Made by a program: the position numbers and the translations under genes. This document shows, one piece after another, positions 13,921-25,871 of a DNA stretch of 32,964 bases (within the stretch, counting starts at the first letter, position 1; each line of letters opens with the position of its first letter). Source of the stretch: Williamwhitmania sp. (GTDB lineage: Bacteria; Bacteroidota; Bacteroidia; Bacteroidales; Williamwhitmaniaceae); NCBI GenBank assembly GCA_035529935.1, contig DATKVT010000043.1, positions 1 through 32,964 on the forward strand, given 5' to 3'. The notes under the pieces are model-generated. The model did no database searches. It was not told the DNA's origin and saw only the letters and a program-made list of their open reading frames with translations.

Positions 13921-14286
13921 GTGTCGAAGTATATTCTCATAATTGACGATTCAGAAACCAACCTTATGCTGTTGGAGGCTGTTCTGGAACAGGAAGGTTA
14001 TCAAACTATCCTTGCTAGAAATGTTGCTGATGGGTTGAAGGCTATGCAAGCGCAAAAACCTTCCCTTATTCTTCTCGATCTCTTAATGCCGAAACGTTCT
14101 GGAATCGATTTTTTGGAGGAGATGAAGCAGAGTAATCATTTTGATGATGTCCCCGTATTTGTAATAACTGCCGCCAATGATGAACATAAGCCACAGGTAA
14201 TGAAGTTTGGTGTAGCGGGATTCTTTACCAAGCCTGTTGATATCAACGCTTTAATGATTAAGGTAAAGGAGATTCTAAATAGTTAA
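13921..14286 (+). CDS. CheY-like response regulator (first in chemotaxis locus)
   Basis: 121 residues from GTG 13921; no ATG fits the receiver fold. It is a stand-alone REC domain: DD at 9-10, phosphoacceptor Asp53 in LLDLLMP, Thr83 in VITAA and the switch Lys in FTKPVD. No output domain. It is the first gene of the rightward chemotaxis-type locus and ends 11 nt before the 589-aa coil protein, so the two are very likely co-translated. DLLMPKRSGIDFLEEM is less CheY-like than the second receiver at 16449. It may therefore act as an accessory receiver rather than the motor-binding one. Confidence 0.9.
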   Translation: MSKYILIIDDSETNLMLLEAVLEQEGYQTILARNVADGLKAMQAQKPSLILLDLLMPKRSGIDFLEEMKQSNHFDDVPVFVITAANDEHKPQVMKFGVAGFFTKPVDINALMIKVKEILNS

Positions 14287-14297
14287 AAGGGTTTATC

Positions 14298-16067
14298 GTG
14301 GAGAAGCAGAACACCCATCTTTCAATTTCAGAGATTTCTGGTTTTTTCTGGCAGATAGACCAGAAAATACAGCAGCTTCATACCTGTTCAAGTGAAGATT
14401 TTTTGGCACTGAATGGAGCCTTTAAACAATTTTATAAGCAGTCGAAGGAGTTGGAGTCCAACGCAAAAGAACTGTTTAGTCTTGTGTCGGGCAGTGATGG
14501 TACCGTTTTGTTTCAGCAGTTAAAATTGTTTTACCTACAGCTCGAAACGGATCAAATTTCGCTTAGTCATTTCTTTCGAGATTCAAAAAAATCGATGGAG
14601 GGTATTTCCCTGAGCATCGACGATTCGTTTTTTCCCCTTAAAAATCTTACACAGGACCTTCTTACCCTGAAATTTCTGGTAGCCAACAAGCAGTTGAATT
14701 CTTTGTGCAACGATGAAGCGAAAATCGGGGGCCTTATAGCGGAATCAGAATCTATCTTAACCGCAGTAGCGGAAATAAGAAATATTTGTGTTAGTTCGGC
14801 AAAGTTAATAGCCCAGTTTAAATTGGGATACAGCAATGGTGTTGATGTTTTTGATGTTCAAGCAACTGCTCAGCTGGAGGCTGTTGATGAGATTCTAGAA
14901 TACTCACACTCTGCCATTGTGCTGTTTGGTGAAAAGTACGAAGGCGCCAAGGGAATGCTTGCCAGCTTATCTGCAAAGACAGAACAAACTACAAACAGTA
15001 TTGGTGATATTGTCACGAAGTTGCAGTATCAGGACATTATACGCCAGAAGATGGAGCATATTCAAGCTTCGCACAAAGGGTTAATCAGGGAACTCGATGA
15101 TAAGGCTGGCCATAACGACGAGCAGATTAATTCTTCAATATTTTCTAAGATTCGAGACATTGCAGAACTTCAAGCCGCTCAGCTAATACATGCCAATAAG
15201 GAATACCAATCTGCCATTGAAGTAATAACAGGAAACTTTACGTCCATTGGTCAGAATTTAGGCGATATTGTTCAGCTGTGTAAGGAGTTTACCAACGGCA
15301 ACGTAGAAAATGAAGAATCACACTTTCTCCAGCTGTCCAATAAGCTCGAAAGGGCATCGAAGGTTATTCATCAGTCTATTCAGTTTTCTAAAAAATCAAT
15401 TGCATATTTGCAGGGGATCATCAAGCTTACTGCAGACTTCCTAGACTCTATTGAAAAGCTACCCAGTCAGTTGGAATCGCTTAATGAGCGATTGCAGAAT
15501 GTTTATTGTTTGGAAGGGCTCCAGAGCAATACTGAAAAACAAATCACAGAACTTCTTCAGGATCTTAATTCGAATAGACAAATTATTGTAACTTCCCAAA
15601 TTAAAACGGACCAACTTCTTGAGACACTTGCCAGTTCTGTTTCCAACAACGCAATGCTTGGAAAAGAAAATGGATCGTTAGTTAAGGTTGCTGATGAGTT
15701 GCAAGCAGTTTTAGTTAAGTTGAAGGAAAAGAGCTCCAAGGTGGAAAATATATTATCGAAGAACCTTCAGCTTGGGTCTACAGTTAAAGTTAGTATTGCC
15801 AGTTCGGTGGAGGCTTGTAAATACTATGACTTTTTTGAGCGGGTAATTGTTGAAATTATTGGGGAGTTGAACCAGATTAGTGAAATGGTGGCCTCAAATC
15901 GTGAATCACCTAGCTCTATAGGAGACAACCTCAAGAATATAAAACGGCTCTACACCATGGAGAGTGAGCATAACATTCATGAAAATGTGATCAATAAAAA
16001 TATGGGAAATCAGGAAAACGATAGCAATACAGATACCTCGCAGCAATCCAATATTGAGTTTTTTTAA
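14298..16067 (+). CDS. Large helical protein with CheZ-like motif, chemotaxis-associated, function unknown
   Basis: 589 residues from GTG 14298. It is soluble, without signal peptide or membrane segment, and predicted almost entirely alpha-helical/coiled coil. The chemoreceptor tip signature (E-x-x-x-Q-T-N-x-L-A-L-N-A) is absent, so it is not a classical receptor. Residues 242-255 read LQYQDIIRQKMEHI. The aromatic-Q-D-x-x-x-Q core (Asp246, Gln250) resembles the CheZ catalytic segment FQDLTGQ. A loosely similar YYDFFERVIVEI occurs at 509-520, suggesting two related helical units. The C-terminus is a disordered Asn/Ser stretch ending NIEFF. It lies between two receivers and ahead of cheA. CheY-phosphate phosphatase or signalling scaffold are the readings I favour; neither is proven. 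Confidence 0.7.
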   Translation: MEKQNTHLSISEISGFFWQIDQKIQQLHTCSSEDFLALNGAFKQFYKQSKELESNAKELFSLVSGSDGTVLFQQLKLFYLQLETDQISLSHFFRDSKKSMEGISLSIDDSFFPLKNLTQDLLTLKFLVANKQLNSLCNDEAKIGGLIAESESILTAVAEIRNICVSSAKLIAQFKLGYSNGVDVFDVQATAQLEAVDEILEYSHSAIVLFGEKYEGAKGMLASLSAKTEQTTNSIGDIVTKLQYQDIIRQKMEHIQASHKGLIRELDDKAGHNDEQINSSIFSKIRDIAELQAAQLIHANKEYQSAIEVITGNFTSIGQNLGDIVQLCKEFTNGNVENEESHFLQLSNKLERASKVIHQSIQFSKKSIAYLQGIIKLTADFLDSIEKLPSQLESLNERLQNVYCLEGLQSNTEKQITELLQDLNSNRQIIVTSQIKTDQLLETLASSVSNNAMLGKENGSLVKVADELQAVLVKLKEKSSKVENILSKNLQLGSTVKVSIASSVEACKYYDFFERVIVEIIGELNQISEMVASNRESPSSIGDNLKNIKRLYTMESEHNIHENVINKNMGNQENDSNTDTSQQSNIEFF

Positions 16068-16089: not shown

Positions 16090-16428
16090 ATGAAAAAGTT
16101 GACTTATAAGGTAATTCTACCTCTGCCTGAAGACAAAGACAATGCAAAAGCATCTATTGTTTTAGGTGGTGATCTTACAATTAATACAGCCAAGGAGCTC
16201 TCAGCGAAATTGGCCAAGGTAATCGTTGATCATGAGAACTTCCATATTAAAATTGCTGCTGTTGAAAACCTTGATCTAGCCTTTCTTCAAGTGATTCACT
16301 CCTTTGTTGTTTCGGCCAAGGAAAAGGGAAAGACGGTGACAATTTCTTCCTCTCTTAGTCCAGAAATCTCACTACTTGTAAAGAATAGTGGGCTATCTCG
16401 TATATTATCACCTGAAGTTAAAATGTAA
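16090..16428 (+). CDS. STAS-domain protein with non-phosphorylatable site
   Basis: 112 residues from ATG 16090; the frame is open to a TTG at 16054 that overlaps the upstream gene, but the STAS fold begins after the ATG. The beta-alpha pattern fits anti-sigma-factor-antagonist/STAS domains: ASIVLGGDLTINTAKELSAKL, then VENLDLAFLQVIHSFV, then KTVTISSSLSPEISLLVKNSGL. In most family members the central motif is D-[ST]-x-G, with the Ser/Thr phosphorylated. Here it is D-L-A-F, so switching by a kinase/SpoIIE pair is unlikely. It lies 22 nt after the coil protein and 20 nt before cheY2. A constitutive scaffold role in the chemosensory complex is an inference. Confidence 0.8.
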   Translation: MKKLTYKVILPLPEDKDNAKASIVLGGDLTINTAKELSAKLAKVIVDHENFHIKIAAVENLDLAFLQVIHSFVVSAKEKGKTVTISSSLSPEISLLVKNSGLSRILSPEVKM

Positions 16429-16448: not shown

Positions 16449-16814
16449 ATGGCAAAAGTAATTTTAATAGTAGATGATTCGGAAAGCATACGGGAAGTCG
16501 TAAGCTTTACGCTTGAAAATGAGGGCTTTAATGTCCTTGCTGCAGTAGATGGGAAGGATGCCTTACGTTTTTTGGATAATTCGCCTATTGACCTGATAAT
16601 AACTGATTTGCACATGCCAAATATGGATGGTATAGCGCTTATTAAGGAAGTTCGGGCTATGGAATTCTACAAGCATGTTCCAATTCTCTTCCTAACCACT
16701 GAATCTCAAGCAGCCAAGAAGATGGAGGCTAAGGAAGCCGGTGCAACCGGATGGATTATTAAGCCATTTGTTCCGACCAAACTTATTGCTGCACTATCAA
16801 AGGTTATGAGGTGA
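16449..16814 (+). CDS. cheY: CheY chemotaxis response regulator
   Basis: 121 residues, ATG 16449. A canonical CheY: DD at 9-10, Asp53 in ITDLHMPNMDG, Thr83 in LFLTTESQ, and Lys105 in AGATGWIIKPF. FLTTES plus GATGWI-KPF is the pattern of CheY proteins that sit directly upstream of cheA, and is closer to classical CheY than the receiver at 13921. CheA transfers phosphate to Asp53, and the phosphorylated form then controls the motility or other output machinery, which is not encoded here. Its stop codon overlaps the cheA start (TGATG), indicating translational coupling. Confidence 0.93.
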   Translation: MAKVILIVDDSESIREVVSFTLENEGFNVLAAVDGKDALRFLDNSPIDLIITDLHMPNMDGIALIKEVRAMEFYKHVPILFLTTESQAAKKMEAKEAGATGWIIKPFVPTKLIAALSKVMR

Positions 16815-18862
16815 TGGATAACTTTAAGAAAAAATTTATAGAGGAGGCCTACGATTTAATCGACAGCCTCGAAAAGTCCCTCTTGGTACTTGAAGACAAT
16901 CCTGAGGACATCCAGATAATTCAGCAGGTATTTCGAATTATGCATACCCTTAAAGGGAATAGTGCCATGTTTGGTTTCGTAAGCATCGATCAGTTTACGC
17001 ATAATTTGGAAACGCTCTACGATTCCATTCGAAACGGTAAGCTTAAGGTTAACAGATCAATATTGGATATTACGCTTGAATCAGTGGACCATCTAAAGCG
17101 ACTGCTGGACGAGGATTCTGAAAAGGATGTTGATGTGGACCGTCAGCATCAGGCGCTACTTGATCGCATGGCACAAATTGTTGTTGGTGATCCTACTCCT
17201 TCTTCGGAGCAGAAGTTGGATAAGCCTTCTGGAAGTACTCCGGATGGAAATGCAAAGACTTACTTCATCTATTTTGAGCCTAAGGAGGAGATTTTTCGAA
17301 ATGGGACTAATCCCCTCTATTTAATTGATGAGCTTCATACCCTAGGGCATGCTATTTCTTTTGCTCATCTTACTAAAGTTCCGCGGATTGCAGATATTGC
17401 ATTTGACCAGTGCTACACCTATTGGGAAATTTTATTGGCAACCCCTTATGATGTTGGTGCAATAAGTGATGTTTTCATCTTCGTGGAGGATGAGTCAACG
17501 CTTGAAATTAGCCAGATAAGCAATAAAAATCTACTGGCGGATAACGATTTTCTTGCTGCACTTAATGGAATTGCAGCCGAGGGGAACGATATCGGTATCG
17601 CTGCAGTTCAAAAATTAGCTTCTCGGGCGAAAAACACTAAGGTTAAAGCTCAGCTAGAAATGGCCAACAATGGAAAGAGTAAACCCAAGGATACAATAAT
17701 ATCCAGCATTCGCGTTTCCGCTGATAAGCTTGACCAACTCATGAACCTTGTAAGCGAATTAGTTACTACACAGGCGCGGTTGAGCTTGTTTGCAGAGCAG
17801 AATCCGGTTCCTGGATTGCTGGCCATTTCGGAGAATGTACAGAAACTTTCCCGACAATTGCGCGATAATGCATTTAGCATTGTGCTCATTCCCATTGATA
17901 ACATGCTGACCCGCTTTCAGAGACTCGTCCGTGACCTTTCAAAAGAACTTGGAAAGGATGTGGTCTTTCTTACGGAGGGTGCGGAAACCGAACTTGATAA
18001 AACCATAATTGAGGGGCTTACCGATCCGTTGATGCATATATTAAGGAATAGCCTTGATCATGGTATTGAGGATGCGGCAGTAAGAAAGCAGATGGGAAAG
18101 CCTGCTCAAGGTAAGATCATTCTAAAAGCCTTCTATTCTGGTGCAAATGTTCATATTCAAATTTACGATGACGGTGCAGGTATCGACCCTGAAAAGATAC
18201 GCCATAAGGCTATTTCCCAAGGGATTATTACTCCAGAAAAAAAGTTAACAAACAAGGAAATATTCGATATCATTTTTCTGCCCGGTTTTTCCACAGCCAC
18301 TAAGGTAACCGATGTATCCGGTCGCGGTGTTGGTATGGATGTGGTAAGGCGAAAGATTGCTGAAATTAGAGGTGAGGTTGAGGTGGATTCAGAGTTGGGC
18401 GTTGGTACAACTATAACTATTAAGTTACCACTTACCTTATCCATAATTGACGGTTTACTTGTAAAAATAGAGGATACGTCATTTGTTATTCCGCTCTCGG
18501 TTGTGGATAAAATATTTGCCATCGAACATGCACAGTTGGTGAACAAATTCAACAATCTGATTATTCTAGATGGGGCACAGGTGCCATTCTTCTATCTTCG
18601 TGAAGAATTTAATATGGATGTGAACAATGCCGATCACTTTGAGGAGATCGTGGTGGTGAAATTTGAGGAGAAACGGGTAGGACTGGCCGTTGATACTGTG
18701 ATTGGTGAGTACCAAGCGGTGCTAAAACCCTTGGGAAAACACTTCAAATCGCACGAGATGATATCTGGCGCCACAATCTTAGGCGACGGAACAGTTGCCT
18801 TGGTAATGGATACTAATAAAATGATTAAAACCTTTCTTTCAAAAGCACCGACTGACGAGTAG
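16814..18862 (+). CDS. cheA: Chemotaxis histidine kinase CheA
   Basis: 682 residues from ATG 16814, which overlaps the cheY stop; a GTG at 16811 is also possible. P1/HPt: phosphoacceptor His44 in MHTLKGNSAMFGF. Residues 147-235 match the region between P1 and P3 seen in many CheA proteins (FRNGTNPLYLIDELHTLG, then WEILLATPYDVGAISDVF). P3 dimerisation begins near 298 (RVSADKLDQLMNLVSEL). P4 ATPase: N-box HILRNSLDHGIED near 409-420, G1 DDGAGIDP, G2 GRGVGMDVV. The P5 CheW-like domain ends the protein. All catalytic motifs are intact. It autophosphorylates under receptor/CheW control and passes phosphate to CheY and CheB. Confidence 0.97.
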   Translation: MDNFKKKFIEEAYDLIDSLEKSLLVLEDNPEDIQIIQQVFRIMHTLKGNSAMFGFVSIDQFTHNLETLYDSIRNGKLKVNRSILDITLESVDHLKRLLDEDSEKDVDVDRQHQALLDRMAQIVVGDPTPSSEQKLDKPSGSTPDGNAKTYFIYFEPKEEIFRNGTNPLYLIDELHTLGHAISFAHLTKVPRIADIAFDQCYTYWEILLATPYDVGAISDVFIFVEDESTLEISQISNKNLLADNDFLAALNGIAAEGNDIGIAAVQKLASRAKNTKVKAQLEMANNGKSKPKDTIISSIRVSADKLDQLMNLVSELVTTQARLSLFAEQNPVPGLLAISENVQKLSRQLRDNAFSIVLIPIDNMLTRFQRLVRDLSKELGKDVVFLTEGAETELDKTIIEGLTDPLMHILRNSLDHGIEDAAVRKQMGKPAQGKIILKAFYSGANVHIQIYDDGAGIDPEKIRHKAISQGIITPEKKLTNKEIFDIIFLPGFSTATKVTDVSGRGVGMDVVRRKIAEIRGEVEVDSELGVGTTITIKLPLTLSIIDGLLVKIEDTSFVIPLSVVDKIFAIEHAQLVNKFNNLIILDGAQVPFFYLREEFNMDVNNADHFEEIVVVKFEEKRVGLAVDTVIGEYQAVLKPLGKHFKSHEMISGATILGDGTVALVMDTNKMIKTFLSKAPTDE

Positions 18863-18961: not shown

Positions 18962-19486
18962 ATGAGCGAAAATGACTTCTCAAATGTAAACTCTTACCTT
19001 TCGTTTAAACTGGGTGAAGAGGAATTTGCTGCCAATGTTGGCAAAGTATTGAATATCTTGGAGATGACTAAGATTACCGAAGTTCCAAAAGCTCCCAACT
19101 ACATGAAAGGGGTAATCAATCTTCGTGGAGCAGTATTACCGGTAATTGACACGCGAGTAAAGTTTGGAATGTCTCCAGCAGTCTATACACCAAATACCTG
19201 TATTATTGTGCTCGATATCGATATGGATGGTGAATCGGTGCACGTTGGAGCTCTGGTTGATTCCGTGCAGGCAGTTTTGGAGCTGGAGAAGGATAAAATC
19301 CTCCCTCCACCAAGCATTGGAAGTAAGTATAAGTCTGAATTTATTGAGGGTGTTGCCAATGTTGATGACCGGTTTGTCATGATATTGGATATGGATATGG
19401 TTTTTTCGTCCAATGAGTTAACAAACATGAAAGACACCGCAGTGGAAACTGCAAAAACTGCAGACATTGAAGAGGTTGGCATGTAA
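18962..19486 (+). CDS. cheW: CheW coupling protein
   Basis: 174 residues, ATG 18962, supported by a strong Shine-Dalgarno. A single CheW domain spans about 8-150: YLSFKLGEEEFAANVGKVLNI, then the core VPKAPNYMKGVINLRGAVLPVIDTRVKFG, and VGALVDSVQAVLEL. The Arg of NLRG, needed in CheW for binding the receptor/CheA interface, is present. The roughly 20 C-terminal residues form a polar tail. CheW bridges chemoreceptors and the P5 domain of CheA. It ends the first chemotaxis block; a terminator follows 40 nt downstream. Confidence 0.95.
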   Translation: MSENDFSNVNSYLSFKLGEEEFAANVGKVLNILEMTKITEVPKAPNYMKGVINLRGAVLPVIDTRVKFGMSPAVYTPNTCIIVLDIDMDGESVHVGALVDSVQAVLELEKDKILPPPSIGSKYKSEFIEGVANVDDRFVMILDMDMVFSSNELTNMKDTAVETAKTADIEEVGM

Positions 19487-20950: not shown

Positions 20951-21089
20951 ATACTTAACCAATATAATGAAAAGTGACGCAAAAGCACTACTTTAGTCTT
21001 TGTTGTAAAGGTTGGAAGTATTGGTCGACCTCAACAAACTTTGTCGGTTTCTCTTTTTTCGTTTTATAAGACTATTAATAAAAATAGGT

Positions 21090-21944
21090 TTGGATCCATT
21101 GCTTAATAAGGCCTTCAGCGCACAACTTAGTGATATCGAGTTCAGTCGGTTAAGCGATTTTATTTACAAGGAAAGCGGCATAAAAATGCCACCCATAAAA
21201 CGAATCATGCTTCAGAGCAGGCTTCAAAAAAGGCTTCGCGAACTTAAGATGATGTCGTTTAAGGAGTATTGCGATTATGTGTTTAGCAAAAGTGGGCAGA
21301 TTGGCGAGATTGTGCACATGCTCGACGTAGTAAGTACAAACAAAACAGACTTTTTCCGTGAACCGGTCCACTTTGATTTTCTTCAGGAAGTTGTTTTACC
21401 AGAGTTTTATGGCCAAAACACTACGCATCGACAGATGAAGGTATGGAGTGCTGGTTGTTCCAGCGGTGAGGAGCCATACACAATTTCTATTGTAATGACC
21501 GATTTTGCTGAGGAGCATACAGGTTTTGACTTTTCTATTCTTGGAACCGATTTGTCGACTCAAATTCTACAAAAGGCTAATAATGCCGTATACAATTATG
21601 ATCGGGTTGAAGCAATTCCTCTGGATATAAAAAAACGTCATTTTTTGAAGAGCAAGGATCGCGAGAAACCTACCGTAAAGCTTGCCCCGCATATCCGTAA
21701 GCGAGTTCGCTTTTCAAGGTTAAACTTTATGGATACCAGCTATGATATTTCTGATGTTTTTGATGTTGTTTTTTGCAGAAATGTGCTGATTTACTTTGAT
21801 AGAATAACTCAGGAGAAGGTAATTAACAAGCTCTGCACAAAGCTGAAACCAGGAGGCTACTTTTTCCTTGGGCATAGCGAGTCTATAATGAGCATGAATG
21901 TACCACTGGTTCAGGTAAAACCTACTATTTTTAAACGTATTTAG
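21090..21944 (+). CDS. cheR: CheR chemoreceptor glutamate methyltransferase
   Basis: About 284 residues from TTG 21090, close to the usual CheR length. The frame stays open to a TTG at 21012, but those 26 residues are hydrophobic/basic and unlike CheR, so the later start is preferred, with some doubt. The N-terminal helical domain reads LSDIEFSRLSDFIYKESGIKM. The SAM-binding domain has VWSAGCSSGEEPYTI, GTDLSTQIL, and FDVVFCRNVLIYF, with PGGYFFLGHSES near the end. CheR methylates glutamates on chemoreceptors using S-adenosylmethionine. It starts the second chemotaxis block and is followed after 35 nt by the kinase-like gene. Confidence 0.93.
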   Translation: MDPLLNKAFSAQLSDIEFSRLSDFIYKESGIKMPPIKRIMLQSRLQKRLRELKMMSFKEYCDYVFSKSGQIGEIVHMLDVVSTNKTDFFREPVHFDFLQEVVLPEFYGQNTTHRQMKVWSAGCSSGEEPYTISIVMTDFAEEHTGFDFSILGTDLSTQILQKANNAVYNYDRVEAIPLDIKKRHFLKSKDREKPTVKLAPHIRKRVRFSRLNFMDTSYDISDVFDVVFCRNVLIYFDRITQEKVINKLCTKLKPGGYFFLGHSESIMSMNVPLVQVKPTIFKRI

Positions 21945-21979: not shown

Positions 21980-22882
21980 ATGAAAAAGTTAACGGACGAA
22001 GAGCTGATTAATGAGTTAACTAAGAGATTCGAAGAGAATAAGCGATCATTCTTGGAGATGCAAGAGCTGAATAAGGAGTTTCAGCTGGTAAATAAAAAGT
22101 TGGAGGAGAGTGAATCGCTAAAAAGTCACTTTATCTCCAACATTACCAACGAAATTGTCAATCCATTTACCTCCATTATTGGTCTTTCGCGTGCAATTCT
22201 TTCGGTGGATAAGGAGAACTGGAAGAAGGTAATATCCATGGTTGCGCTTATACACACGGAGGCTTTTCATCTCGATTTTCAGCTTAGGAATATTTTTGTT
22301 GCTGCAAAAATTGAGGCCGGAGAAGTGGTTCCTGAGGTAATGGAGGTTGATATACGGAGTTTGATCGACAGCGTGATTGATGCCTACAAGATTGAGGCGA
22401 AGAAAAAAAGGGTTGTCATTTCTGCCAAATTTGGCATTCCGGGATACTCGGGTGTTGGTCCATACAATTTTAAAACAGACCCAGAGAAGTTGAAGCTAAT
22501 TCTTTCCAACCTCATAAGTAATGCTGTAAAGTATTCGTTCGATGATGGAACTATTGAACTGAATATTTTAAGAGATAGTAACGTTCTTGCAATTTCGGTT
22601 GTTGATCACGGGACTGGAGTTTCTGAGATTAACCAATCCATCATTTTTGATAGATTTAAGCGGGTAGATACAGGAATAAATTCTATCAATCGTGGGCATG
22701 GGTTGGGCTTATCCATCAACAGGGCGCTGCTTGATGTGCTAGATGGGTCTATTGAGGTATCGAGCCAGGAGGGACATGGTGCAACTTTTACTATTTCCAT
22801 CCCTGAGGCTACCAATGCTAGTGAAGGATTTGCCGCCGATGATAATGAGTTCTTCTTTGGAGAAGAACCGCAAGTGTTTTAG
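21980..22882 (+). CDS. Histidine-kinase-like ATPase lacking the phosphoacceptor histidine
   Basis: 300 residues, no membrane segment or sensor domain. Residues 1-48 form a coiled coil. The dimerisation helix follows at 50-110: FISNITNEIVNPFTSIIGLS aligns with the usual F-L-x-N-M-S-H-E-I-R-T-P-L, but the phosphorylated His is Asn57. The HATPase domain looks complete: N-box SNLISNAVKYS at 176-186, G1 DHGTG at 209-213, F-box FDRFKRVD, G2 GHGLGLS at 239-245. It may still bind ATP and act as a phosphatase or allosteric partner, but cannot autophosphorylate at the normal site. It sits between cheR and cheD (5-nt gap), so a chemotaxis-linked role is likely. Confidence 0.85.
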   Translation: MKKLTDEELINELTKRFEENKRSFLEMQELNKEFQLVNKKLEESESLKSHFISNITNEIVNPFTSIIGLSRAILSVDKENWKKVISMVALIHTEAFHLDFQLRNIFVAAKIEAGEVVPEVMEVDIRSLIDSVIDAYKIEAKKKRVVISAKFGIPGYSGVGPYNFKTDPEKLKLILSNLISNAVKYSFDDGTIELNILRDSNVLAISVVDHGTGVSEINQSIIFDRFKRVDTGINSINRGHGLGLSINRALLDVLDGSIEVSSQEGHGATFTISIPEATNASEGFAADDNEFFFGEEPQVF

Positions 22883-22887
22883 TCGTT

Positions 22888-23373
22888 ATGGAGCAGCTCC
22901 CAATTCATTTTTTATACCCTGCGGCCATGTTTATCGACAAGACTCCCCATAAGGTGCACACCATTCTGGGCAGTTGCGTGGCTGTTTGTCTATACGACCC
23001 GGTTATGCGAATAGGAGGAATAAATCATTACATGCTGCCATACTGGAATGGGCAAGGACTTGCATCACCAAAATATGGTAATATTGCCATTGATCGGTTG
23101 GTAGAAAAAATGTTATCTTTTGGATGTCTTAAAGTTAACTTGAAGGCAAAGGTTTTTGGAGGTGGGGAGGTTATAGAAACCATTAATAACCAGTTTCAAA
23201 TTGGTGAACGGAACATAATGGTTGCCCGCGATTTACTCCGTGACCATGGAATTGTAACCATTGGATCAAGCGTAGGCGGTAAGTTGGGACGAAAGATAGA
23301 ATTTGATACGCATACGGGTGAAGTTAGAATGAGGTTTATTGAAAAGCAGGTAATCACGTTAAACAACAAGTAA
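22888..23373 (+). CDS. cheD: CheD chemoreceptor glutamine deamidase
   Basis: 161 residues, ATG 22888. The catalytic Cys30 is in LGSCVAVCLYD and the catalytic His47 in GGINHYMLPYW, both in the CheD arrangement. KVFGGGEVI and the later GSSVGGKLGRKIEFDTHTGEVRM complete the family pattern. CheD deamidates specific glutamines of chemoreceptors and in several bacteria interacts with CheC. No cheC is present here. The gene is tightly packed, 5 nt after the kinase-like gene and 9 nt before cheB, so it belongs to the same operon. Confidence 0.94.
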   Translation: MEQLPIHFLYPAAMFIDKTPHKVHTILGSCVAVCLYDPVMRIGGINHYMLPYWNGQGLASPKYGNIAIDRLVEKMLSFGCLKVNLKAKVFGGGEVIETINNQFQIGERNIMVARDLLRDHGIVTIGSSVGGKLGRKIEFDTHTGEVRMRFIEKQVITLNNK

Positions 23374-23382
23374 CCTGAAGCA

Positions 23383-24459
23383 ATGTCGGAGAAGATAAAA
23401 GTTTTGATTGTTGATGATTCTGCGGTTGTTCGTCAAACCTTAAGTCGGATTATCACATGCGACCCTGATCTGGAAGTTCTGTCTACTGCAGCTGATCCAT
23501 TCTTTGCAGCAAAAAAAATTTCGGAACACTTGCCCGATGTAATTACGCTCGATGTTGAAATGCCCAGGATGGATGGACTAACATTTTTGCGGAGGATTAT
23601 GTCGCAGCATCCTATACCGGTAGTCATTATTTCGAGCCTAACTGAGTCGGGAACAGAAACTGGGATGAAGGCGCTGGAATACGGTGCCGTGGAGATTATA
23701 ACTAAGCCTCAAATGAACACGAAACAGTTCATAGAGGAATCGAGCATTCGCATTTGCGACGCTATTAAGGCTGCTTCCCATGCACGAATCCAACGGCGTC
23801 GATATGTTGAACCTACCGTAATGCAGGTTGAACCAAAACTTTCTGCTGATGCAGTAATTCCAAAGACTTTATTAACACATAGCATGATTAAAACCACCGA
23901 GATAGTGGTTGCCGTTGGTGCTTCAACTGGAGGAACAGAGGCTATTGCTACTTTTTTGAAGGCTTTACCTCCCGATTGTCCTGGCATTATTATCGTTCAA
24001 CACATGCCCGAGAAATTTACTACTTCCTTTGCCAATCGGCTCAATGAAATTTGCCAAATTTCTGTTAAAGAGGCCAGTAATGGTGATACTGTAATTCGTG
24101 GTCAAGCGTTGATAGCACCCGGCAACTTCCATATGCTGCTCAAACGCAGTGGCGCTCGCTACTATGTGGAGGTGAAGGAGGGACCATTTGTAAATCGGCA
24201 TCGCCCATCTGTTGATGTTCTTTTTCGAAGCACAGCTCAGTATGCGGGTCCCAATGCCATTGGGATTATCATGACTGGTATGGGCGATGATGGCGCTCGT
24301 GGATTACTAGAGATGAAGGAGGCTGGTGCAAAAACCATTGCTCAGGATGAAAAATCGTGTATCGTTTTTGGCATGCCCAAGGAAGCCATCAGGCTAGGGG
24401 CTGCAGACAAGGTGCTTCCCATTGAGGCTATAGCTTCCTATATTATAAAACCTCATTAG
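23383..24459 (+). CDS. cheB: CheB chemoreceptor methylesterase/deamidase
   Basis: 358 residues, ATG 23383. The N-terminal receiver domain carries DD at 11-12 and phosphoacceptor Asp57 in [13 protein letters not shown] linker at 125-170 leads to the methylesterase domain. The catalytic triad is complete: Ser181 in [10 protein letters not shown], His207 in [13 protein letters not shown] and Asp303 in [12 protein letters not shown]. It removes methyl groups placed by CheR and is activated when CheA phosphorylates its receiver. It follows cheD by 9 nt and precedes the DUF4407 gene by 8 nt. Confidence 0.96.
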
Positions 24460-24467
24460 CTTTTAGC

Positions 24468-25871
24468 ATGACAACCAGAAGTTATTCACGCAGATCCTCC
24501 CTTCCTTTCTTCTACCGCGTGTTTTGTTGGTGCTCAGGTGCAAGACTTTATCTGCTGGAGCGCTGTCCTTCCGATTTGAATAAGTTTTTGGGAATTGGGG
24601 CAGTAATTCTTATGACTGGCATCTTAGCCTCATTGTCGGGGGGATATGCCATTTACACCATTTTTAGAAATCCGCTGCTTGCTGCTTTGTTTGGTATGCT
24701 TTGGGGGCTGCTCATTTTTTTTCTTGATTTTTTTCTAGTTTCAAGTCTAAAGAAGCAGGATCGCGTTTCAAAGGAGATGCCTTTTGCCATACCCCGCATT
24801 ATACTGGCTATTCTCATTGCTATTGTAATTTCAAAACCAATTGAACTCAAACTCTTTGAGCGGGAAATTAATGTCGAAATTGAGGCGATGCAGTCCTCTA
24901 AAAATCTAGAGATTTCGGATCTCGTCGATAAAGAATTTGGGGAGATCAGCCAGCTTACTCAGGAAAATGAACGGCTTAAGGCTGGTATTGCAGCCAAGGA
25001 ACAAAGTCGGAATCAACTCTTCGATATGATTGTTGCTGAGGCAGAAGGTAAAAGTCCTACCGGAAAAGTTGGCAAGGGACCAGTTTATTCAGAAAAAAAG
25101 GCCGAGTTTGATAAAACAGAGAGGGAACTTGAGGCTGTTCGTAAAGAGAACCAAACACAACTGGTCCGCAATAATCAACGTATTGAAGTATTAACGAAAC
25201 AACGTGATGAGCGACTGGCACAAACTACCCAAACGAGTAGTCGTGCCAATGGCTTCCTCGCTCGGTTGGAGGCAATGTCCAACATCTCATCCAAGAGTTC
25301 TATAGTAAGTATTGCTAGCTGGTTTATTACTCTGCTTTTTATTGTAGTAGAAGCATCTCCCATAATTGTCAAGCTTCTCTCCAAAAGAGGTCCCTACGAT
25401 TTCTTGCTGGAGGCGGAAGAATTTCAGAAGGAAGCTGAGGCCAGTATTATAATAGAAAATATCCGTTTTGGACACGAGGAAAGCATCGATGTCGATAGAG
25501 AAGTGGCTCGCATAAAGTTTAAGAGCGAGATATCGTTGCAGTCACAGTTTATTTCCGAGGAAGCAGAGGTGCGCCGTGAGCTATTTCGGAGGCGATTAAA
25601 AACGTTTGAAGAGGCAGGCAAGGTGCCTAAGTGTGATTTAAAGTTAGTTCCTGAGGCTGTCGATGGTGCTGAAGAAGAAAATTCGGAGGAGGTTCTTACT
25701 GAGAGTGCCGCTAATGTTGAGCTAATTGAGAGCGTTACTGCAAGTGATGAAGCTGAACAAAAGCAGATAGTGGTTGACTCCCCCGTGGAAAAAAACAGTT
25801 CATTGCCACTTCTAGAACGTTGCATCGAAGGCCGTATTGAGCCTATTCATAAAAATGGTGACGAAAAGTAG
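24468..25871 (+). CDS. DUF4407 membrane protein with coiled coil
   Basis: 467 residues, ATG 24468. The N-terminal motif FYRVFCWCSGARLYLLERCPSDLNKF marks DUF4407. Membrane segments lie at about 40-62, 68-92 and 108-124, followed by a long coiled coil (130-270) and a fourth segment near 280-305 that includes VVEASPIIVKLLSKRGPYD. The C-terminal 160 residues are soluble, highly charged and then acidic and disordered. The family's function is unknown. Placement 8 nt after cheB implies co-expression with the adaptation enzymes. The protein has no receptor hairpin, receiver or kinase domain. A membrane input or anchoring role in this signalling locus is only an inference. Confidence 0.85.
   Translation: MTTRSYSRRSSLPFFYRVFCWCSGARLYLLERCPSDLNKFLGIGAVILMTGILASLSGGYAIYTIFRNPLLAALFGMLWGLLIFFLDFFLVSSLKKQDRVSKEMPFAIPRIILAILIAIVISKPIELKLFEREINVEIEAMQSSKNLEISDLVDKEFGEISQLTQENERLKAGIAAKEQSRNQLFDMIVAEAEGKSPTGKVGKGPVYSEKKAEFDKTERELEAVRKENQTQLVRNNQRIEVLTKQRDERLAQTTQTSSRANGFLARLEAMSNISSKSSIVSIASWFITLLFIVVEASPIIVKLLSKRGPYDFLLEAEEFQKEAEASIIIENIRFGHEESIDVDREVARIKFKSEISLQSQFISEEAEVRRELFRRRLKTFEEAGKVPKCDLKLVPEAVDGAEEENSEEVLTESAANVELIESVTASDEAEQKQIVVDSPVEKNSSLPLLERCIEGRIEPIHKNGDEK

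Follow-up and report, generated by a model that had tools for sequence, protein, structure and literature searches.

How is the signal ended in a bacterial chemotaxis pathway whose genome appears to lack the usual CheY phosphatases? Signal termination is essential to chemotaxis, and the CheA-positive Bacteroidales genomes examined here hold essentially no CheZ or CheX matches. The window, an entire 33-kb contig from a draft genome of 4.04 Mb (97.7% complete), contains a chemotaxis operon with one protein that may fill this gap. P0001 is a predicted all-helical protein of 589 amino acids, encoded at 14298–16067 on the + strand from a GTG start, the position and length that an initial annotation had assigned to it. 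Its sequence and family alignment point to a large, duplicated CheZ-type CheY-P phosphatase of a flagella-less Bacteroidales chemotaxis pathway, a reading to which we give a probability of roughly 0.6.

The gene was initially described as lying between two CheY genes. On the upstream side this is exact. CheY1 (13921–14286, +), a receiver-only protein and candidate substrate, abuts P0001 and keeps the equivalents of D12, D13, D57, T87 and K109. On the downstream side, a STAS-domain gene (16090–16428, +) intervenes before CheY2 (16449–16814, +), which is the more conserved partner and likewise a candidate substrate. An alternative TTG start for the STAS gene at 16054 would overlap P0001; the ATG at 16090 is more likely to be the start. 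The order then continues with the histidine kinase CheA (16811–18862, +), CheW (18962–19486, +), an outer-membrane-type gene, CheR (21012–21944, +), a small histidine kinase (21980–22882, +), CheD (22888–23373, +) and CheB (23383–24459, +), the last two being named from sequence and synteny rather than from a Pfam scan. A gene for a DUF4407 protein (24468–25871, +) lies 3' of cheB, and such a gene follows cheB at several other loci as well, among them L041, L064 and L059 of the named strain Perlabentimonas gracilis M08_MB. The genome as a whole has about eight chemoreceptor genes.

The initial annotation had noted no cheZ, cheC or cheX elsewhere in the locus, and this extends to the whole 97.7%-complete genome, in which none is found over threshold. 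CheZ gives no match there even at E <= 10. The CheC and CheX families (PF04509, PF13690) have no match in P0001 and none over the cut-off in its genome. Among 149 relatives, CheZ passes the cut-off in 0 and CheX in 1. Seventeen of the 41 relatives with CheA have neither P0001 nor CheZ or CheX over the cut-off, so none of the three appears to be indispensable to the pathway, which weighs against the phosphatase reading.

Homologues of P0001 can be counted in two ways. A whole-protein search of the 149 relatives, which forms the unbiased set, found them in 24 genomes; a more sensitive profile search of the same relatives added only coil noise, and the 24 positives stand. All belong to genomes with CheA: P0001 is present in 24/41 CheA-positive and 0/108 CheA-negative genomes (one-sided Fisher p = 5e-17). 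Across 85,000 species genomes, a search seeded on the motif discussed below returned 119 relatives, of which the best 80 are all from Bacteroidota, mostly named Bacteroidales. The family alignment comprises 83 distinct sequences, and the family is Bacteroidales-wide with at least that many members. Plasmids searched with P0001 and with the motif peptide gave no match, nor did viral contigs searched with CheA. No account of the family was found in the open-access literature, and subscription journals may differ. It is a previously unclassified family, located in the chemotaxis operons of gut and sediment Bacteroidales that have CheA and no flagella.

The usual place of the P0001 gene is 5' of STAS-CheY2-CheA-CheW-CheR-HK-CheD-CheB. 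Where enough flanking sequence is available, CheY2 follows P0001 at 58/75 loci and CheA at 57/75, while CheY1 precedes it at 38/69. The STAS gene, between P0001 and CheY2, belongs to the conserved part of the cheA operon (48/75 loci). CheY2 is missing behind P0001 at 17 loci, several of them in rumen genomes, and three of the 17, viewed closely, have no adjoining chemotaxis gene. P0001 homologues apart from cheA occur at L051, L054, L055, L057, L060 and L074 and in other rumen Bacteroidales. At L057 and L074 the homologue is followed by the same ORF of about 900 amino acids (MGRKKA...FVSPIDRFKNW), FtsK-like by eye; at L057 and L060 a glycosyltransferase-like gene lies 5' of it. At the 16 CheA loci that have no P0001, the order STAS-CheY2-CheA is mostly retained, and the CheY1 neighbour is missing in nearly all of them. 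A search of these 16 loci for a hidden, diverged P0001 copy found none. One candidate, an ORF beside the STAS gene at L165, was rejected because it is a chemoreceptor.

The case for a phosphatase is centred on residues 244–250, which read YQDIIRQ, as first reported. For the length and own composition of P0001, the expected number of occurrences of the pattern [FYW]QDxxxQ is 0.011. The motif lies in the most conserved segment of the protein, residues 242–254 (LQYQDIIRQKMEH; 15021–15059, +). Within it all 24 homologues of the whole-protein search set share Q243, D246, I247, I248, Q250 and H254 without exception. The best-conserved 11-residue window of P0001, YQDIIRQKMEH, contains the motif, and D246/Q250 is the sole D/E...Q/N pair retained across all 24. 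Judged from sequence, the motif is for these reasons beyond chance. Both residues are also present in 83/83 members of the full alignment, a set that draws on the motif-seeded scan; since the 85,000-genome scan took the motif as its seed, it is no argument for motif conservation.

The established phosphatase motif of CheZ is DxxxQ. HisKA_3 kinases such as NarX have it too, adjoining a conserved His, and in both CheZ and the NarX-type kinases the Asp and the Gln are each required for phosphatase activity (PMC3510030). The CheZ-like pattern proposed for P0001, aromatic-Gln-Asp-x3-Gln, is retained in part. Residue 244 is aromatic (Y/F) in all members aligned, and D246 and Q250 are kept; Q245 varies, being His in 55/83 and Gln in 26/83, so that one or the other stands before Asp246 in 81/83 members; the corresponding residue of CheZ is Gln. 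AF2 models place residues 244–250 in a helix.

By Pfam criteria, P0001 is outside the CheZ family. PF04344 (CheZ) has no match in P0001 and is not among the 25 most frequent families of the 83 members (E <= 1). The protein accordingly fits neither classical CheZ nor a chemoreceptor, as had been anticipated: MCPsignal (PF00015) has no match in it, with weak matches in 2/83 members (best E 0.0039), and a receptor tip is absent. Searches of Pfam, NCBIfam and PDB sequences yielded only coil-type or sub-threshold matches, with no confident match to an unrelated coiled-coil profile. When P0001 was compared directly by profile with a set of seven classical CheZ proteins, as the initial annotation had suggested, the result was not significant (E 0.67, score no better than reversed CheZ). 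The best local alignment in that comparison falls on YQD/FQD, within an overall score that is not significant. A second feature of CheZ, AxxFQ adjoining DxxxQ (PMC7750401), is not seen in the family, where position 241 is mostly N or K and position 245 is His in 55/83.

A closer likeness is found in a divergent CheZ from a genome of the same order. A CheZ search of the relatives identified a short contig, G131:C292 (loci L118 and L172). The L118 protein, encoded there directly upstream of a cheY, has a Pfam CheZ match at E 1.3e-5, below the curated cut-off, and carries LQFQDITTQ. Its SIINALQFQDITTQQ corresponds to IITNLQYHDIIRQK in the P0001 consensus. The two proteins align without gaps over 46 columns, motif on motif, with a score of 27.8; 100 block shuffles reached at most 20.3 and 150 ORFs from the loci compared, chemoreceptors included, at most 23.2. 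The alignment, with one sequence from a short contig, is suggestive of a common catalytic segment. G131:C292 may be contamination from another organism or phylum in the bin.

Structure prediction also covers the region of the motif. AF2, run on the 83 sequences, gives an all-helical model of P0001 (pLDDT 81, pTM 0.62) with a disordered tail. A helical hairpin at the motif had been proposed as a check, and residues 139–333 are indeed modelled as an antiparallel two-helix hairpin with pLDDT 91. The second hairpin helix, residues 286–311 (15153–15230, +), has conserved Q292, L296, N300 and I310 and is predicted opposite the motif. Read from the helix ends of the model, the motif would lie about 20 residues before the turn, with Q292–N300 about level with it. 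Foldseek and VIA searches with the full model and with 139–333 returned generic long-helix bundles and hairpins; CheZ, whose hairpins form a four-helix bundle, is unlisted among them, which is no argument either way.

The hairpin seems to have a counterpart in the C-terminal half. A weaker copy of the motif (YYDFFERVIVEI) was reported at residues 509–520, and it is present there within a degenerate segment spanning residues 509–525 (YYDFFERVIVEIIGELN; 15822–15872, +), in which F513 is invariant. D511 is Asp or Glu in 74/83 members, and the Gln at i+4 is missing in most. Comparison of the N- and C-terminal half profiles gives a probability of 91% and a score of 50.2; none of 40 block shuffles scored higher than 30.3, and the reversed profile reached 29.2. 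The alignment pairs YQD (244–246) with YYD (509–511), and the conserved motif YTMESEHNIH at residues 552–561 (15951–15980, +) with about 290–299. The internal duplication that had been hinted at is therefore supported by the half-profile scores, with a second copy that has lost the catalytic Gln. Judging by the profiles, this copy is in all likelihood a true duplicate within the protein. Since CheZ acts as a dimer of hairpins (PMC7750401), the analogy makes it an attractive idea that P0001 could be a single-chain pseudo-dimer.

P0001 ends in a disordered tail (16020–16064, +), acidic in the family, whose last five residues are NIEFF. The tail has low pLDDT, and its conserved part is only [VIL]E[FL]F, with an invariant terminal Phe. 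This pattern forms the last four residues in 80/83 members and is exactly terminal in 81/83. The tail was initially likened to the CheY-binding tail of CheZ. Its disorder and conservation stand; the likeness itself is ambiguous, and the tail resembles the receptor ending [YF]E[KR]F at least equally. In its own genome, five of six distinct receptor C-termini that were read end in YEKF, and in relatives the receptors have [YF]E[KR]F at their end. This ending is that of the CheR/CheB-tether pentapeptide. The tail may thus be a docking pentapeptide of CheR/CheB type instead of a CheY-binding CheZ tail.

A similar style of tail can be found in the small kinase of the operon and its homologues (L038–L099), which have a conserved acidic tail with NE[TAM]FF and a terminal E-x-F (such as DEETF or DSEVF), resembling those of P0001 and the receptors. 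The kinase may dock to the same partner as these tails. An acidic-aromatic disordered tail that binds a response regulator is known from WalK (PMC9087282).

If P0001 is a phosphatase, its action can be outlined as follows. The hairpin around residues 140–332 would present Asp246 and Gln250 to the active site of a receiver. Asp246 would then be paired to the conserved Lys of that receiver (K109 equivalent), and Gln250 would position the attacking water. CheY2-P, and perhaps also CheY1-P, would be hydrolysed. The second copy without its Gln may stand in for the second subunit of a CheZ dimer, and the acidic [VIL]E[FL]F tail would dock P0001 to a partner. A bolder version of the proposal makes P0001 a new class of phosphatase, namely a single-chain, duplicated CheZ-like enzyme with one live and one dead site and a receptor-like docking tail. 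It would reset the signal in Bacteroidales pathways that control a non-flagellar machine; in this full form the proposal must be called tentative.

One objection to any catalytic role is that polar residues conserved in helical bundles can be structural. The alternative to be taken most seriously casts P0001 as an effector or scaffold for CheY-P, a FliM-like link to a motility machine such as the T9SS/gliding motor, with DxxxQ as a binding face only. FliM is missing from all 15 P0001-positive genomes tested, and each of them carries GldL, a motor protein of the T9SS, so that CheY needs a target other than the flagellar switch, which could by inference be the T9SS/gliding motor. The size and long helices of P0001 would suit a scaffold, as would the occurrence of its gene apart from cheA in some rumen genomes. 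GldL is general among T9SS-bearing Bacteroidota, however, and its presence is therefore unspecific. Moreover, an effector leaves unexplained why precisely an Asp and a Gln, at a spacing of four residues, never vary in the best-conserved segment, and why the likeness to the divergent CheZ is centred on the motif. We consider this role unlikely. The GldL of the own genome (G000:C48:28655-29800) is encoded in a 406-aa frame that matches the 247-position family model in two parts, and the match is likewise split in several relatives; an insertion in this GldL is possible.

The tail invites another explanation, in which P0001 belongs to the adaptation arm of the pathway and uses x[VIL]E[FL]F to dock, and so tether, sequester or regulate, CheR or CheB. 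Nearly all 83 members share with the receptor tails, at the exact C-terminus, the Glu in position 3 and the Phe in position 5 of the pentapeptide, and tether pentapeptides are usually acidic (PMC7390727). Known pentapeptides nevertheless have aromatics at positions 2 and 5, the former playing an important part in the binding of CheR (PMC7390727); in the P0001 family, position 5 is always Phe but position 2 is Val, Ile or Leu in 82/83. The gene also adjoins cheY and cheA rather than cheR or cheB, and a tether would be compatible with P0001 as a phosphatase. We consider this reading quite improbable. Least probable of all is a degenerate cytoplasmic receptor-like coil or structural array protein, with the motif as a structural polar layer. 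The all-helical prediction, weak coil-type matches to receptor structures and the MCPsignal matches in two members are in its favour, but P0001 itself lacks the receptor tip and any MCPsignal match. The PDB matches to receptors reflect composition and not kinship: designed coiled coils score equally, and the matches fall within the variable coil 315–489, outside the conserved segments.

If the phosphatase reading is right, a conserved and previously unclassified protein beside cheY and cheA, with the catalytic pair of CheZ, fills the phosphatase gap of these pathways. P0001 would then serve as a metagenomic marker of such chemotaxis systems and would help to show how CheY acts without a flagellar switch, with the T9SS/gliding motor as a possible target. 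In addition, it would offer a natural case of phosphatase duplication followed by the decay of one active site.

Among known systems, methyl-accepting chemotaxis proteins share with P0001 a long helical coil and an exactly terminal x-x-E-x-F; P0001 differs from them in having no signalling tip, no membrane or sensor domain and no recognised methylation helices. CheC, CheX and FliY (CXY) have the function proposed here, dephosphorylation of CheY, but achieve it with ExxN in an alpha/beta fold, whereas P0001 has DxxxQ in an all-helical one. HisKA_3 kinases such as NarX and DesK, whose conserved His stands exactly one residue from DxxxQ, resemble the two thirds of the P0001 family that have H-D-x-x-x-Q. 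Unlike them, P0001 has no kinase or ATPase domain and no reported HisKA_3 match, and its His is variable (Gln in 26/83).

The nearest comparison is CheZ itself (E. coli, PF04344). CheZ is 214 amino acids long, while P0001 has 589 with an internal duplication and a degenerate second copy. P0001 lacks AxxFQ, having N or K in place of the Ala and varying between H and Q where the Gln stands; its tail has no VDDLL of the kind found in the CheY-binding helix of CheZ (199–214, VDDLLxSLGF); and within the sets searched it is confined to Bacteroidota. The two are alike in the pattern aromatic-[Q/H]-D-x-x-x-Q, borne by a long helix that is part of an antiparallel hairpin (predicted in P0001), in a gene beside cheY and cheA, and in an acidic-hydrophobic terminal tail with a final Phe (VDDLLDSLGF in CheZ). 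Both systems have the conserved receiver Lys, present here in both CheYs, and the divergent CheZ of L118 is colinear with P0001 over about 46 residues.
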